Assembly (NCBI RefSeq): GCF_007625115.1
Contig: NZ_VMNH01000018.1
Span: forward strand, 1 to 64,000
Source: Sedimenticola selenatireducens
GTDB lineage: Bacteria > Pseudomonadota > Gammaproteobacteria > Chromatiales > Chromatiaceae
DNA: 64,000 bases
Direction of reading: 5' to 3'
The notes beneath the pieces are model-generated. The model had not been told where the DNA came from. It saw nothing but the letters and a program-made list of their open reading frames with translations, and made no database searches. Each line of letters begins with the position of its first letter. Positions within the stretch are counted from its first letter, which is position 1. Made by a program: the position numbers and the translations under genes. Of the stretch, positions 58,404 to 64,000 are shown one piece after another.

Positions 58404-60533
58404 ATGGATGCGAAAGGTAATAGTCTAACGCCAACGGGCAAGCGAGCCGAGAGCCTGAGTCTGGATAAGATGCCGGTTAATGCCCTCAAAGGCGTTGGGC
58501 CACGCAATGCGGAAAAGCTGGCCAAGATCGGTATTAACAGTGTTCAGGATATCCTGTTTCATCTGCCGTTTCGGTATCAGGACCGCACCCGGGTTGTGCC
58601 AATCGGTTCGCTCCGTCCCGGTGACAGCGTGGTGATCGAGGGTGAGATTGAGTTGGCCGATATCCGTTTTGGCCGACGCCGTTCGCTGCTGGTGAGATTA
58701 GCTGATGGGACCGGTAGCCTTATTCTGCGGTTCTTTCATTTCTCCACTGTTCAAAAGGCAGCGCTGGTAAGGGGAAATCGACTGTGCTGTTATGGTGAGG
58801 TGCGTAATGGGCCGAGCTGTTATGAAATGGTGCATCCCGAGTATCAGCTCATAACCGAAGGCGCTGATACCGGTGTTGAGGATGCATTGACACCGGTTTA
58901 TCCATCGACGGATGGGATGCATCAGTTAAGTTGGCGGGGTATGGCAGCGCGCGCAATGGTGCTGCTTGATGCCCACCCGGAGTCGTTACCCGAGTGGCTA
59001 CCCGATGAGCTGTTACAGCGTTTTCGATTGCCTGATCTGGTGGCTGCCCTTACTTATCTGCATCGGCCACCACCTGATGCCCCCCGGGAAAACCTACTGG
59101 CAGGCACGCATCCGGCACAGCAGCGTCTCGCGTTTGAGGAGTTAATGGCTCATCAACTCAGCCTGCGTGAAACCCGTGGCCGACAAAAAAGACTCATGGC
59201 AACAGTATTGCAGCCTACGGGTGTATTGACGGAGTCGCTACTATCCCAATTGGCCTTTCGTCTGACGGCAGCCCAACAGCGGGTGCTGGGTGAGATTTCG
59301 GATGATCTCGCGCTGGATCATCCGATGTTGCGTCTGGTTCAGGGTGATGTGGGTTCGGGGAAAACAGTAGTGGCGGCACTGGCTGCGCTTCAATCTATCG
59401 AGGCGGGATATCAAGTCGCCCTCATGGCGCCGACTGAACTGCTTGCCGAGCAGCATCTGCGCGTATTCAAACAGTGGTTTGAGCCGCTTGGGCTAGAGGT
59501 TTCATGGCTCACGGGTCGGCATAAAGGTCGGGTGCGCGAACAGCTGCTGGGTGATCTTGCAGAAGGGCGGTCACCGATTGTGGTTGGTACTCATGCGCTG
59601 TTTCAGTCTGATGTGGTTTTTGAAAAACTGGGACTGATCATTATTGATGAGCAGCACCGGTTTGGTGTGCACCAGAGGATGGCGCTACGTAATAAGGGTG
59701 CCAACGAAAAAGTACCTCACCAATTGATCATGACGGCTACGCCGATCCCGCGGACACTGGCTATGACAGCGTACGCTGATCTGGATCTGTCGATTATTGA
59801 TGAGTTGCCACCGGGACGTGCACCGGTGGCCACTGTGGTGATCCCGGATAGTCGTCGGGCCGATGTGGTTGAGCGGGTGCGCAGTGCCTGTCTTGATGGG
59901 CGACAAGCCTATTGGGTTTGCACCTTGATTGAAGAGTCCGAGGCATTGCAATGTCAGGCGGCTGAAGAGTCCCGAATCACCCTGCAGGAAGTCTTACCAG
60001 AACTGCGAATTGGACTGGTGCATGGGCGGTTGAAGGCGGCGGAGAAAGAGGCGGTCATGGCGGCCTTTAAACAGGGTGAGTTGGATCTTCTTGTGGCTAC
60101 CACGGTCATTGAAGTGGGTGTGGATGTGCCAAAGGCGAGCCTGATGATTATTGAGAATCCTGAGCGACTGGGTTTGGCGCAGTTGCATCAACTGCGTGGT
60201 CGTGTCGGGCGTGGTGCGGTAGAGAGTCACTGTGTCCTGATGTATCACCCGCCCTTGTCCCAGAATGCCCAACAGCGCTTGGGTGTCCTGCGTGAGACTA
60301 ATGACGGTTTTGTCATTGCACAGAAAGATCTGGAGTTGCGTGGACCAGGTGAGGTGCTGGGCACCCGGCAGACGGGAGAGATGCAGTTTCGGATTGCAGA
60401 TCTTCTGCGTGATCAATCACTGTTGGATGAAGTCCAGGAGGCAGCTCAATTGCTGCTTGAGCATTACCCTGAGCGGGTAGAGCCTTTAGTGCGACGTTGG
60501 ATTGGTGATAGGCAGCATTATATCAACGCCTGA
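58404..60533 (+). CDS. recG: ATP-dependent DNA helicase RecG
   Basis: A 709-residue helicase that reverses and processes stalled forks and branched DNA. N-terminal wedge (OB fold, about 60-160), then motor domains with Walker A GDVGSGKT (about 314-321), MAPTELLAEQH, Walker B IIDEQHRFGV, TATPIPRTLAM, and motif VI HQLRGRVGRG. The C-terminal TRG segment follows in LRGPGEVLGTRQTGEMQF. Length and order are standard. Confidence 0.96.
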   Translation: MDAKGNSLTPTGKRAESLSLDKMPVNALKGVGPRNAEKLAKIGINSVQDILFHLPFRYQDRTRVVPIGSLRPGDSVVIEGEIELADIRFGRRRSLLVRLADGTGSLILRFFHFSTVQKAALVRGNRLCCYGEVRNGPSCYEMVHPEYQLITEGADTGVEDALTPVYPSTDGMHQLSWRGMAARAMVLLDAHPESLPEWLPDELLQRFRLPDLVAALTYLHRPPPDAPRENLLAGTHPAQQRLAFEELMAHQLSLRETRGRQKRLMATVLQPTGVLTESLLSQLAFRLTAAQQRVLGEISDDLALDHPMLRLVQGDVGSGKTVVAALAALQSIEAGYQVALMAPTELLAEQHLRVFKQWFEPLGLEVSWLTGRHKGRVREQLLGDLAEGRSPIVVGTHALFQSDVVFEKLGLIIIDEQHRFGVHQRMALRNKGANEKVPHQLIMTATPIPRTLAMTAYADLDLSIIDELPPGRAPVATVVIPDSRRADVVERVRSACLDGRQAYWVCTLIEESEALQCQAAEESRITLQEVLPELRIGLVHGRLKAAEKEAVMAAFKQGELDLLVATTVIEVGVDVPKASLMIIENPERLGLAQLHQLRGRVGRGAVESHCVLMYHPPLSQNAQQRLGVLRETNDGFVIAQKDLELRGPGEVLGTRQTGEMQFRIADLLRDQSLLDEVQEAAQLLLEHYPERVEPLVRRWIGDRQHYINA

Positions 60534-60629
60534 AACGGGTGGCCCTCGGTGCCCTCCAATTGTAGGAGAAAAGCGCTGTGAAATCGGAGATAATGCTCGC
60601 TTTGCAGTAACGGGGTCGGGTTATTTTTG

Positions 60630-61190
60630 ATGGGTTTACAGGGCAAGCGAGAGCCACACTGGGCGACATGGGGTCGGATGCGGCAACGTGATGTGCCTAG
60701 CGGGATTGAGCATTGGTTGCGTGACCGAGGATCGCTTACCGCGCGCCTTAAGTCTGTTTCTGGCAACCAATTCCGGGTTAATGTACTCAGTCAGGGGTGG
60801 GCAAGGCCACTCGATAGTGAGCGGCGGTTACTGGGGATGCGGCAGGGTAGCATTGCCATTGTTCGTGAGGTGGAGTTGGTCTGCGCTGGCGTCCCCTGGG
60901 TGTTTGCCCGTACCTTGATCCCGGTGCGAAGCTTGATCGGCCCCGCCAGGCGTCTAGCTAAGCTGGGTTCACGGCCCTTGGGTGAGGTACTGTTTGCAGA
61001 CCCCTCTATGCAGCGTGGGGTGACCCAGATGGCACGATTGGTTCCTGGACATTGCCTGTTTACCTCGGCTACGCAACATCTGCCAGAGGCTAAGGTGATT
61101 TGGGGGCGGCGCACCCTGTTTCATCTGTCTAAAAAACCGTTACTGGTGAATGAGATTTTTTTACCCGATATTCCTGAGAGTCCTGCATGA
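60630..61190 (+). CDS. ubiC: Chorismate pyruvate-lyase UbiC
   Basis: Produces 4-hydroxybenzoate and pyruvate from chorismate, the first dedicated step of ubiquinone synthesis. The 186-residue protein has the family blocks HWLRDRGSLTARLKS, GMRQGSIAIVREVELVCAGVPWVFARTLIP and LGEVLFADPSMQRG, followed by WGRRTLFHLSKKPLLVNEIFLPDIP with the C-terminal Glu. The ATG at 60630 is preferred over the adjacent TTG. It overlaps ubiA by 4 bp (ATGA). Confidence 0.92.
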   Translation: MGLQGKREPHWATWGRMRQRDVPSGIEHWLRDRGSLTARLKSVSGNQFRVNVLSQGWARPLDSERRLLGMRQGSIAIVREVELVCAGVPWVFARTLIPVRSLIGPARRLAKLGSRPLGEVLFADPSMQRGVTQMARLVPGHCLFTSATQHLPEAKVIWGRRTLFHLSKKPLLVNEIFLPDIPESPA

Positions 61191-62092
61191 ATCACCCCGA
61201 ATTTGAGATCAAGGAGGTCATGGCTCCCCGTACTTGGCAGCAACAGTTCGATGGCTATATTCGCTTGATACGGCTGGATAAACCGATCGGCATTTTACTG
61301 TTGCTCTGGCCGGCCCTCTGGGCGCTCTGGATGGCGGGTGCAGGACAACCGCGGTGGGGTGTGGTGCTGATCTTTATTCTGGGTGTTGCGCTGATGCGTT
61401 CGGCGGGATGTGCGATCAATGATTATGCCGATCGGCATTTTGATGGAGAGGTGGCGAGAACCTGTGGGCGGCCGCTGGCGACAGGTCTGGTTAGTCCAAA
61501 AGAGGCCCTATGGATTTTTGCCATACTCTGTTTGATCGCCTTTGGCTTGGTACTATTGCTCAATCAACAGACAGTTGTGATGTCATTTGTGGCAGTGTTA
61601 CTGGCCGCGCTCTATCCCTTTATGAAGCGCTTTACCCACCTCCCACAGCTGGTGCTGGGGATGGCCTTTGGTTGGGCTGTACCCATGGCCTATATGGCAC
61701 TGACAGAGGCGATACCGCTGATCGCCTGGGTATTGTATGTCGCGACAATCGTCTGGGCGCTGATCTACGATACAGAATATGCCATGGTAGATAGGGATGA
61801 TGACCTGCGGATTGGGGTGAAATCGACCGCAATCCTGTTTGGCCGATATGATCGGTTGATCATTGGACTGTTGCAGTTGGTCATGATAGGACTGATGATT
61901 ACAGTGGGTATACAGGTGGGGCTGGGTCTTTACTACTATCTCGGTTTAACAATCGCATCGCTGTTGTTTGTCAGGCAGCAGCAGCTGATTAGCAACAGAG
62001 AACCCGCTGCTTGCTTCACCGCTTTTCTGAACAACAATTGTGTCGGTATGATGATATTTTTTGGATTGCTGTTGGATTATTTTATCGGCTGA
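61187..62092 (+). CDS. ubiA: 4-Hydroxybenzoate polyprenyltransferase UbiA
   Basis: Inner-membrane prenyltransferase, about eight to nine helices in 301 residues. It attaches the polyprenyl tail to 4-hydroxybenzoate. The two Asp-rich diphosphate-binding motifs are present: NDYADRHFDGEVARTCGRPL and YDTEYAMVDRDDDLRIG. It is coupled to ubiC by the ATGA overlap. A second ATG twelve codons in (after AAGGAGG, too close) is an alternative. It converges with dsrA. Confidence 0.94.
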   Translation: MNHPEFEIKEVMAPRTWQQQFDGYIRLIRLDKPIGILLLLWPALWALWMAGAGQPRWGVVLIFILGVALMRSAGCAINDYADRHFDGEVARTCGRPLATGLVSPKEALWIFAILCLIAFGLVLLLNQQTVVMSFVAVLLAALYPFMKRFTHLPQLVLGMAFGWAVPMAYMALTEAIPLIAWVLYVATIVWALIYDTEYAMVDRDDDLRIGVKSTAILFGRYDRLIIGLLQLVMIGLMITVGIQVGLGLYYYLGLTIASLLFVRQQQLISNREPAACFTAFLNNNCVGMMIFFGLLLDYFIG

Positions 62093-62143: not shown

Positions 62144-63391
62144 TTAATGGGCCTGAGATTTTCGCTCGTTCCATTTGGCCGCTTCGTCATCCCAGTCGTC
62201 GGTACGGACGTAGGGGTTAGTGCGCGGTTGTGAGATCATCTCTGGTTCGATCTCAAGATCAAGGCCTTCAAGGAAGTTGATCAGACCGATGCGTTCAATC
62301 ATCTCGCCTGTACGCTCATGTTCCAGCGCGTTCTCAGCGAAGAAGTCGAGGATTCCGGTACTCAGTTCTTCAAGCCACTCAAAATCCTCATCGGTTTCAA
62401 GCTTATGGAATGGTACGATCACTGTGCCCATCAGATCGCCGATCTTCAATGTACGCTTGCCACCCACCAGGATACTGACGCCTTTATCTTCACCAGGAGA
62501 GAGTGCCTTGGTCATGACGTTAATGCAGTGCATGCAACGCACACAGTTGTGATTGTCCACCTCTAGGGTGTCGTCGTCATTGAGTGACAGAGCCTGAGTA
62601 GGGCAGCGGGTGATGACGTTGTCGATGACATACTTCCGCCCCTTTTTGGCGACATAGTTCTGTACTTCGACCTGATCAACCTTCATCGCATCTCGCCAGG
62701 TGCCGATCATTGCCACGTCGGCGCGCTGAATGGAGTTCATGCAGTCGTTGGCACACCCTGAGGCCTTAAATTTCAGCTTGTAGGGGAGTGCGGGGCGATG
62801 CATGTCATCCAGGTTGGCATTGACGCAGGTGCGCATGGCGCGTGCTTCGTCATAGCAGGATTGTTCGCAGCGTGCAGCACCGACACAGGACATACCGGTA
62901 CGAACCGCAGGGCCCGCGCCACCCATGTCAAAACCGGCCTTGTTAATCTCATCAAACGCCTTCTGTACATTCTCAGTGGTACAGCCCTGGAACATGATGT
63001 CACCGGACTGCCCATGAAAGGCGATCAGACCGGAGCCATATTTTTCCCAGATATCGCATAGGGTCCGAATGGTCTTGCTATCATAGTGCATGCCGGGTGG
63101 TGGCATGATGCGCAGCGTGTGAAACTCGGCGGCATCAGGAAACAGGGGTTTGTTGTTGGCATCTTTCAGTTCTGTGAAGCGGGGGATGACACCGCCACCA
63201 TAACCAATGACACCGACTGTGCCACCCTTCCAATAGCCTTTGCGTGTCTCATATGAGGTCTCAAGCTGACCCAGCAGGTCGACCATCATGTTGTTGTCTT
63301 TTGCCAGGCGCTTGAGCCCGGTTACAAAACTTGGCCAAGGGCCGCCCTCCAGCTGATCCAGCATCGGGGTATCATGCATCGGTTTTGTCAT
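62144..63391 (-). CDS. dsrA: Dissimilatory sulfite reductase, alpha subunit (oxidative type)
   Basis: A full-length 415-residue DsrA. Sirohaem-[4Fe-4S] cysteines are Cys169 and Cys175 (SCVGAARCEQSC) and Cys213 and Cys217 (SGCANDCMNS). The inserted ferredoxin domain carries Cys263 (TRCPTQAL) and Cys283, Cys286, Cys289 (NCVRCMHCINVM). The sequence follows the sulfur-oxidiser type (ETRKGYWKGGTV, FHGQSGDIMFQG). In that pathway DsrAB oxidises sulfane sulfur to sulfite. A strong GGGAGGTG precedes the ATG. No dsrB, dsrE/F/H/C or other dsr gene is adjacent: ubiA converges downstream, and a phasin gene lies 302 bp upstream. This is unusual, since dsrA and dsrB normally form one operon. Confidence 0.94.
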   Translation of the reverse strand: MTKPMHDTPMLDQLEGGPWPSFVTGLKRLAKDNNMMVDLLGQLETSYETRKGYWKGGTVGVIGYGGGVIPRFTELKDANNKPLFPDAAEFHTLRIMPPPGMHYDSKTIRTLCDIWEKYGSGLIAFHGQSGDIMFQGCTTENVQKAFDEINKAGFDMGGAGPAVRTGMSCVGAARCEQSCYDEARAMRTCVNANLDDMHRPALPYKLKFKASGCANDCMNSIQRADVAMIGTWRDAMKVDQVEVQNYVAKKGRKYVIDNVITRCPTQALSLNDDDTLEVDNHNCVRCMHCINVMTKALSPGEDKGVSILVGGKRTLKIGDLMGTVIVPFHKLETDEDFEWLEELSTGILDFFAENALEHERTGEMIERIGLINFLEGLDLEIEPEMISQPRTNPYVRTDDWDDEAAKWNERKSQAH

Positions 63392-63538
63392 ACTTCACCT
63401 CCCAAAATCACCTACGCTACTTTATTTGTAAAGGGCAGCGCTTGCCCGTCCGGGCTGTCTGTATATTATGAGCCCCACCGTTAAATGTGGGTTCTGCTGT
63501 TAATCCAACAGCTTGACGATGATGATAGATCAAAAGAA

Positions 63539-63559
63539 TACCAAGTAAACCACTTGGTA
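63539..63559. promoter_or_regulatory. Inverted repeat, candidate operator before dsrA
   Basis: TACCAAGT (63539-63546) and ACTTGGTA (63552-63559) are perfect complements with a 5-bp spacer. The site lies about 150 bp upstream of dsrA, beyond the phasin terminator as read toward dsrA. There is no U tract, so an operator is likelier than a terminator; the binding factor is unknown. Confidence 0.4.
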
Positions 63560-63570
63560 ATTGGGGTAGG

Positions 63571-63598
63571 TAAAAAAATGCCCGGCGGGGAGCCGGGC
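63571..63598 (-). terminator. Rho-independent terminator of phasin gene
   Basis: Arms GCCCGGC (63580-63586) and GCCGGGC (63592-63598) flank a 5-nt loop. On the minus strand the stem runs into a stretch of Ts (ATTTTTTTA), the correct orientation to end the phasin transcript about 95 bp after its stop codon. This also separates it from dsrA. Confidence 0.85.
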
Positions 63599-63693
63599 GA
63601 AAATCTCTCTATGCACTGTTCAGAGAGAGGAGGATCTCTGCCTGGGCCGGTTAATGACCGTCACAGGACGTTGATAAGGTGTTGCCGCTAGCG

Positions 63694-64000
63694 TTACTTT
63701 TTGAAGGCTTCGCCGGCTACTGCAGACACTTTGCTGTTGAAGGTGTTGATGCCATTCTCCAGCCAGCTGCGGTACTCGTTACTGGCCTGACTGGCCAGAT
63801 CGACGGCTTCACGGCCTTTAACAGCCATGTTCTCGCTCAATGCTTTACCCAGTGCGGCCTGGTTTTCCAGTACAGTCTTGATATCCTGTGGGTTGCCGTT
63901 GGCTGCGATCTGGTCTATACCTGCATCAACAAACAATCCAAATGCATCCATCTGTTTTTCAACCAATTTCTCCCAGGTGCGGAGGTTGATTTCAGCCAGC
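63694..64000 (-). CDS. Phasin family protein, C-terminal part (5' end outside window)
   Basis: The frame is open to the right edge, so the true start is not visible. The seen part (about 102 residues) is a helical phasin C-terminus: LAEINLRTWEKLVEKQMDAFGLFVDAG, then LENQAALGKALSENM, AVDLASQASNEYRSWLENGINTF and a short tail. Phasins coat polyhydroxyalkanoate granules, implying carbon storage. The gene lies upstream of dsrA with a terminator between, so they are probably not one message. PHA synthase genes are not in view. Confidence 0.85.
   Translation of the reverse strand, partial: LAEINLRTWEKLVEKQMDAFGLFVDAGIDQIAANGNPQDIKTVLENQAALGKALSENMAVKGREAVDLASQASNEYRSWLENGINTFNSKVSAVAGEAFKK

Follow-up and report, generated by a model that had tools for sequence, protein, structure and literature searches.

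DsrAB is the key enzyme with which many symbionts and bacteria of sediments oxidise sulfur. Its genes serve as a marker, as described in a passage of Loy et al. 2009 (PMC2702494). The same passage, citing Beller et al. 2006, mentions extra dsrA unlinked to dsrB in Thiobacillus denitrificans. Phages also carry dsrA, in some cases together with dsrC, and the relevant passages of PMC8190135 report that dsrB was not found on phages and raise the question of why. Second complete dsrAB pairs occur in Moorella and Magnetococcales, according to excerpts of PMC10504309 and PMC6783814.

Herein, we describe a solitary dsrA in a window of 64,000 bp (the whole stretch of DNA analyzed) from the genome of Sedimenticola selenatireducens, referred to below as the host. 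An unlinked extra dsrA of this kind is already known, in the passages cited, from T. denitrificans, and phage dsrA without dsrB is another instance. Like T. denitrificans (PMC2702494, in that passage), the host is a sulfur oxidiser with a dsrA unlinked to dsrB besides a clustered dsrAB; however, two copies with DsrA identities of 78%–83% are described there, whereas Sedimenticola has one copy at 90%. The Sedimenticola copy also has a place shared across genera, its own upstream DNA, and traces of conversion with the cluster copy, with T. denitrificans being known here from the published passage. Like the phage genes (Lauvirus lau218 and IMG/VR contigs; excerpts of PMC8190135), it brings no dsrB, and DsrB would be supplied by the cluster of the host; unlike them, it is chromosomal, lies among housekeeping and PHA genes, and comes from its own lineage. 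More than one dsrA per genome is shared with Moorella and Magnetococcales (same excerpts of PMC10504309 and PMC6783814) and with genera g7, g20, g46, and g53 of our samples, but the second copies there have their own dsrB. Compared with the standard clustered dsrA-dsrB of sulfur oxidisers, the gene is alike in sequence, length, and cofactor motifs, and differs in location, upstream DNA, and the lack of an adjoining dsrB.

In the literature searched, as far as the passages retrieved extend, the solitary Sedimenticola dsrA was undescribed, including in PMC10952691, PMC4971068, PMC11406059, PMC9796809, and PMC4472907 (S. thiotaurini); the term "dsr" was absent from the retrieved text of PMC5052931. 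A conserved place, distinct upstream DNA, gene conversion, and an asymmetry between chromosomal dsrA and dsrB were likewise not met in those passages. Among the carriers of the gene are isolates, S. selenatireducens DSM 17993 and S. hydrogenitrophicus, a bacterial parallel in which the question of dsrA without dsrB on phages becomes testable.

The solitary dsrA and the dsr cluster of the host

The solitary dsrA, a second and unpaired copy, occupies 62144–63391 on the reverse strand as an ORF of 415 aa with an ATG start. Its product scored 535.4 bits against the TIGR02064 dsrA model (cut-off 392.85, residues 11–410) and only 128 bits against the dsrB model, and both Pfam NIR_SIR and NIR_SIR_ferr matched. 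A near-full-length alignment with solved DsrA chains covered the cysteine motifs, in which cysteines for both the siroheme-coupled and the ferredoxin-type cluster were present; the assignment of individual cysteines to one cluster or the other is our assumption. A ribosome site, GGGAGGTG, lies directly 5' of the start, within a ribosome-binding region at 63392–63403 (reverse strand) that reads GGGAGGTGAAGT ahead of the ATG. The nearest relatives among named organisms, mainly sulfur oxidisers, and the gene trees place the gene with the oxidative (reverse) type. No dsrB was found next to it at the locus, which is in the middle of a contig of 98,948 bases. An earlier note, made from the DNA letters alone, had described an intact, full-length, oxidative-type dsrA with all cluster cysteines and a strong ribosome site, lacking dsrB, flanked by a phasin gene upstream and a convergent ubiA 51 bp away, and this description was borne out in each part.

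The note had left it open whether the gene is a second copy, a relocated gene, or a subunit with a separate partner, and had suggested a search for dsrB and a complete dsr cluster in the rest of the genome (41 contigs, 4.03 Mb, 99.99% complete). A second dsrA was located on contig 28 (G000:C28:32106-33341), encoding a DsrA 90% identical to the solitary one and followed directly by the sole dsrB found in the host (E up to 1e-60). In this cluster, dsrE, dsrF, dsrH, dsrC, dsrK, and dsrO scored over the cut-off, and dsrM, dsrJ, and dsrP were matched under it. The place of dsrL is taken by a PRK12771-type protein, the type to which DsrL belongs. With dsrEFH and dsrL, the cluster has the make-up of the oxidative type. 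The reading as a second copy was thus upheld. Relocation was ruled out because the cluster retains its own dsrA. A separate partner gained no support as far as tested: the host and the other five Sedimenticola genomes showing dsrB have one dsrB each, with no further dsrB for the solitary DsrA at E up to 1e-60 in any of the six. Since there is a single dsrB per genome, the likely partner of the solitary DsrA is the ordinary cluster DsrB.

Place of the gene in related genomes

The solitary dsrA converges on ubiA (61187–62092, forward strand), whose stop at 62092 leaves a gap of 51 bp and which is the same neighbor in 12 other genomes from four genera. Preceding ubiA are ubiC (chorismate lyase-like, 60627–61190, forward strand, under the model cut-off) and recG (58404–60533, forward strand), and all three form a conserved flank. 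On the other side lies the phasin gene (63694–64000 in the window and up to 64104 in contig coordinates, past the window end; reverse strand), which matched Pfam Phasin_2 and stayed under the cut-off of the NCBIfam phasin model. Beyond it, phaR and the acetyl-CoA acetyltransferase gene phaA are on the same strand, followed by phaE and phaC on the other. The overall order is hisG-phaC/phaE-phaA-phaR-phasin-(phaB)-dsrA, convergent to ubiA-ubiC-recG.

This place between the PHA genes and ubiA holds a dsrA in 13 genomes of four genera, complete on one contig in 10 (three genera) and split at contig ends in three. Within the Sedimenticola sample, the solitary dsrA was beside phasin and ubiA in all nine genomes, host included; in eight, a single contig carries the locus, and in G004 it is divided between two. 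A cluster dsrA was also found in six of the nine; in the remaining three (65%, 78%, and 90% complete), neither cluster dsrA nor dsrB passed the thresholds applied. The family sample comprised 146 genomes, 124 with dsrA and 25 with two or more dsrA matches. The second copy was at the PHA-ubiA place in 10 of these 25, namely six Sedimenticola and G043 (g36), G023 (g16), and G017 and G070 (both g10, both split at contig ends). In 13 of the other 15, dsrB followed both copies; in G118, an 83% dsrA had no dsrB within the 1.4 kb left on the contig, and in G012, a 49% copy stopped at the contig end. Of the 80 named loci listed, three were solitary Sedimenticola copies (L044, L045, and L100), 75 had dsrB behind dsrA, and two (L055 and L087) ended before dsrB could show. 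All 10 solitary copies of full length have an open reading frame. The solitary dsrA is a real, conserved, and constrained second alpha-subunit gene.

The locus is not retained everywhere. It is reduced to phaR-dsrA-ubiA-ubiC-recG in G043, and G086 of the same genus has only a 3' dsrA remnant beside ubiA, whose best stretch of 99 bp is 91% identical to its own cluster dsrA. In several sister genera, a search next to ubiA gave no dsrA. G101 belongs to genus g7, as does Ca. Thiodiazotropha endoloripes; its ubiA is 0.9 Mb away from the PHA genes, with no dsrA beside either. The remnant, together with the lack of a copy beside ubiA in those sister genera, indicates that the gene is dispensable there.

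The earlier note had raised two doubts, a misjoin at the locus and a dsrB following this dsrA in homologous genomes, and neither held. A misjoin was excluded by synteny: 10 genomes from three genera show the same arrangement within a single contig, and dsrB followed in none of these 10. That the solitary dsrA as a whole is an assembly or binning artefact has next to no probability. An artefact would fit with the contig breaks that occur at dsrA in this family and at tuf copies in the host genome; against it, the host locus is mid-contig, and among the 10 one-contig genomes G043 and G007 are assembled in 1–2 contigs. In genus g11 (G071, G018, and G102), contigs end at dsrA, dsrB, or ubiA; in G071, the terminal 23 bp of the contig with ubiA match its dsrA end exactly. 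Such stops, which the tuf genes of the host show in the same way, probably reflect a near-identical second dsrA collapsing in assembly. In the three g11 genomes and in G341, dsrB was present, with the adjoining dsrA wholly or partly missing at contig stops. Surveys based on dsrA could miss organisms of this sort, the gene may look absent from a draft genome, and counts of dsrA can be misleading.

A phage origin was also rejected. The phage DsrA found were distant, 60%–68% identical to the solitary DsrA (63% for Lauvirus lau218), and the neighbors are recG, ubiC, ubiA, and PHA genes; the gene is not carried by a phage genome. A search of a plasmid collection gave no match to the solitary dsrA.

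Upstream DNA and coding sequence

Upstream of the solitary dsrA is a palindromic element at 63522–63566 (reverse strand), CCCCAATTACCAAGTGGTTTACTTGGTA ... TATCAT, which resembles a promoter and may act as one. Its sole match with zero mismatches in the host genome was this site. The four further matches, all with two mismatches, compare with five in the control, so we claim no co-regulated genes. A sigma-70 scan of the upstream region gave two sites against 1.4 expected, which is not above chance. Comparison of the upstream DNA of seven solitary loci with block shuffles, in which two-base blocks were moved (not strictly preserving dinucleotides), revealed that 15 of 17 between-genus pairs and four of four within-genus pairs were more alike than the shuffles, no more than 7 of the 300 shuffles equalling any significant pair; the exceptions were G007-G043 and G002-G043. 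The upstream DNA of the solitary copy was not like that of the cluster dsrA of the same genome in any of the seven (18 to 292 of 300 shuffles as good, the closest being G070 with 18). It therefore differs from that of the cluster while being shared between genera, and it may contain a promoter.

Between this region and the phasin gene, a hairpin with an intrinsic terminator at 63572–63635 (reverse strand) would end the phasin transcript ahead of dsrA and is a possible small RNA. The phasin 3' element CCTCCTCTCTCTGAACAGTGCATAGAGAG with its terminator hairpin was nearly identical across three genera, with 0–1 mismatches in 25 bases (window, L138, L142, L143, and L202). It folded better than shuffles (z −3.25), occurred once in the host genome, and gave weak matches, under the gathering cut-off, to RF02278, RF02837, and RF02784 of Rfam. 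It was also found behind phaB, and in G073, with no dsrA inside the following 1.8 kb. It is possibly a small RNA from the PHA transcript.

The earlier note had proposed a DsrA tree including any second copy. In our trees, the eight Sedimenticola solitary copies formed a clade (100/100) beside the six Sedimenticola cluster copies, and a single clade of all 10 full-length solitary dsrA was rejected (p-AU 2e-10 for DNA and 3e-8 for protein). Both dsrA copies of G043 were sisters (100/100), and in g10 the 5' part of each solitary copy was sister to the cluster copy of its own genome. With codons 1–105, sol_G023 grouped weakly with the Sedimenticola solitary copies (88/60), and the tree of codons 1–170 disagreed. 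The trees are of a chosen set of 38 rows and omit most of the 80 named loci listed, with L056, L058, and L064 as the only distant relatives; the cluster copies of G014, G122, G141, G027, and G104 and the second dsrAB pairs of g7, g20, g46, and g53 were left out, and the cluster rows include frag_G071 as well as frag_G118, which may be a lone copy. Converted sequences, moreover, violate the assumption of one tree.

Scans of third codon positions revealed such conversion. In G043, codons 171–375 formed a tract of low divergence, with 16 of 205 positions differing inside and 81 of 209 outside, and both S. hydrogenitrophicus genomes had tracts, at codons 101–375 and 151–365. Tracts were thus seen in three of eight solitary-cluster pairs (p 0.0033 each, the smallest possible with 300 shuffles), and in neither the other five (p 0.21–0.78) nor six ortholog control pairs (p 0.09–0.97). 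The two S. hydrogenitrophicus tracts, from sister genomes, may be one event, which would leave at least two overall. Taken with coding sequences that are not monophyletic, the shared upstream DNA indicates an old place with a homogenised gene body, with sequence passing from the cluster copy or to it. Another way to explain the split tree, namely that each genus acquired the gene independently at this site, is made unlikely by the shared upstream DNA and the mosaic divergence.

Across six Sedimenticola genomes, NG86 dN/dS was 0.023 for solitary dsrA, 0.034 for cluster dsrA, and 0.010 for dsrB, values that are approximate with dS near saturation in many pairs; the ratio of 0.023 indicates purifying selection on the solitary gene. 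At 17 positions, all eight solitary Sedimenticola DsrA differed consistently from all six cluster copies. None of these was a cysteine, and most were near the protein ends or in residues 110–152. Of the 210 columns that do not vary among 20 cluster DsrA from outside the genus, Sedimenticola solitary copies changed 1–5 (mean 3.1, eight copies) versus 1–3 in cluster copies (mean 1.8, six copies); sol_G043 changed none and sol_G023 six. The codon adaptation of the solitary dsrA was higher than that of 42 of the 50 window ORFs and lower than that of the cluster dsrA in five of six genomes (ribosomal reference set from the host genome only), a weak hint that the gene may be weakly expressed.

The divergence of cluster DsrA relative to DsrB was 4.6 within Sedimenticola and 2.3 in g10 (one pair), compared with 1.17 between genera and with 0.88 and 1.00 in two genera that yielded no solitary copy, g7 and g20. 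In g36 and g16, the ratios were 0.91 and 1.00 (single pairs, one member each with an intact solitary copy). Conversion between the copies or a shared workload could have raised the divergence of cluster DsrA.

Possible role and lone dsrA in the class

To place the host in a wider frame, 370 genomes of the class were sampled, with dsrA in 124 and dsrB in 125 at E up to 1e-100; two or more dsrA occurred in 19. A lone dsrA, off contig ends and without dsrB behind it, was found in six of the 124 dsrA-bearing genomes: the host and five genomes from four other families, G340 and G492 (f86), G426 (f88), G506 (f109), and G224 (f77). At least 6.7 kb behind the gene was free of dsrB in these five; in G224, the sole dsrB match was a fragment at the start of another contig. 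The lone copies of G340, G492, G426, and G506 have open reading frames and lie in differing, unrelated places, none of them the PHA-ubiA place, and neither a PHA gene nor ubiA was found beside that of G224. In G340 and G492, the lone copy was nearest to its own cluster copy (94% and 96%), versus 91.5% between the two lone copies. The extra dsrA of G457 and G493, at or near a contig end, were not assigned as lone or paired, nor were those of G432, G458, and G480. Among the 125 dsrB-bearing genomes, contig ends aside, dsrB was never seen alone. Every dsrB adjoined dsrA or sat at a contig end, as read by eye and checked in the DNA for multi-copy and doubtful genomes only; in G341 and G386, which had no dsrA match, dsrB ended within 280 bp of the contig end. 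Within the limits of small numbers and fragmented genomes, dsrA alone appears to have been gained repeatedly, and dsrB alone was unseen.

Sequence comparison revealed a duplication, a conserved place, distinct upstream DNA shared across genera, purifying selection, conversion tracts, and a single dsrB. We consider it somewhat better than an even chance that the solitary gene is an old duplicate encoding a separately regulated, alternative or supplementary alpha subunit that uses the cluster DsrB and is kept compatible by gene conversion. The cluster dsrA would have been duplicated before several genera diverged, and the copy would have stayed in its place ever since, with PHA genes on one side and ubiA-ubiC-recG on the other. 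From its own promoter, it would make a normal DsrA (alpha) subunit that most likely pairs with cluster-made DsrB; the resulting reverse sulfite reductase would replace or supplement the usual form under conditions unlike those that drive the cluster, while repeated conversion with the cluster dsrA would keep it compatible with the single DsrB. Expression, assembly with DsrB into an alpha2beta2 enzyme, differing regulation, and any catalytic difference are predictions from the DNA. The explanation is supported by the second dsrA, the single dsrB, the shared place, purifying selection, the few changes at columns invariant in cluster DsrA and none at a cysteine among the 17 fixed differences, the upstream likeness, the mosaic tracts, the DsrA/DsrB divergence ratios, and the recurrence of lone dsrA. 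It is weakened by the lower codon adaptation, the near-saturated dS, the G086 remnant, the sister genera with no copy beside ubiA, the chance-level sigma-70 scan, the two non-significant upstream pairs, and the g36 and g16 ratios.

Several of these observations are also compatible with other explanations. The very similar protein and its repeated homogenisation would suit plain dosage, in which the same subunit is simply made in larger amount because alpha is limiting, with no different condition or property. The recurrence of dsrA-only copies at unrelated places and in other families agrees with this, as does the addition of dsrA without dsrB by phages (passages of PMC8190135). However, mere dosage does not lead one to expect upstream DNA that is common to genera yet unlike that of the cluster, 17 positions that separate all eight solitary from all six cluster Sedimenticola copies, or codon adaptation below that of the cluster copy in five of six genomes, and we regard it as unlikely, though at roughly one chance in four it is the foremost alternative.

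Gene conversion alone could keep the copies similar without a separate role, and the gene might then be a neutral leftover or a conversion reservoir that persists by chance. The 3' remnant of G086, the related genera with no copy beside ubiA, and the tracts themselves are in line with this, but the open frame in all 10 full-length copies, the strong purifying selection in the six Sedimenticola copies compared, and the conserved upstream element and ribosome site make it improbable. Still less probable is a role independent of DsrB, as a DsrA homomer or with another partner. The lack of a linked dsrB and the one dsrB in each of the six Sedimenticola genomes showing any are what it can draw on; yet the solitary copies have kept nearly every residue that does not vary in cluster DsrA, and homogenisation with a dsrB-linked copy argues for the same DsrB interface.

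Beyond the alternative or supplementary alpha subunit proposed for Sedimenticola, we tentatively suggest, with somewhat less than even confidence, that DsrA may be an exchangeable subunit of the reverse sulfite reductase, which several families and phages would have added separately, apparently never dsrB alone, with the Sedimenticola-type copy kept under its own promoter and compatible by conversion. If this is true, a cell would change the amount or properties of a central sulfur enzyme through an alpha-subunit swap only.

The lone copies outside the host are on contigs C25 of G340, C68 of G492, C90 of G426, C5 of G506, and C218 of G224 (L253–L256 and L262); that of G340 is beside an ABC transporter-like gene set, as judged by eye. 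Two dsrA-dsrB pairs of different lineages were observed in g7 (G101, G014, G122, and G069) and g20 (G027, G124, G074, G141, and G104; L124–L132 for both genera), with DsrA about 80%–84% and 64%–67% identical to the solitary DsrA. These genera hold Ca. Thiodiazotropha and a Lamellibrachia symbiont. A divergent dsrA (about 47%–54% identical) with its own dsrB occurred besides the usual type in G053, G092, and G118 (g46), G060 and G096 (g53), and G322 (L133, L134, L136, L137, and L224).
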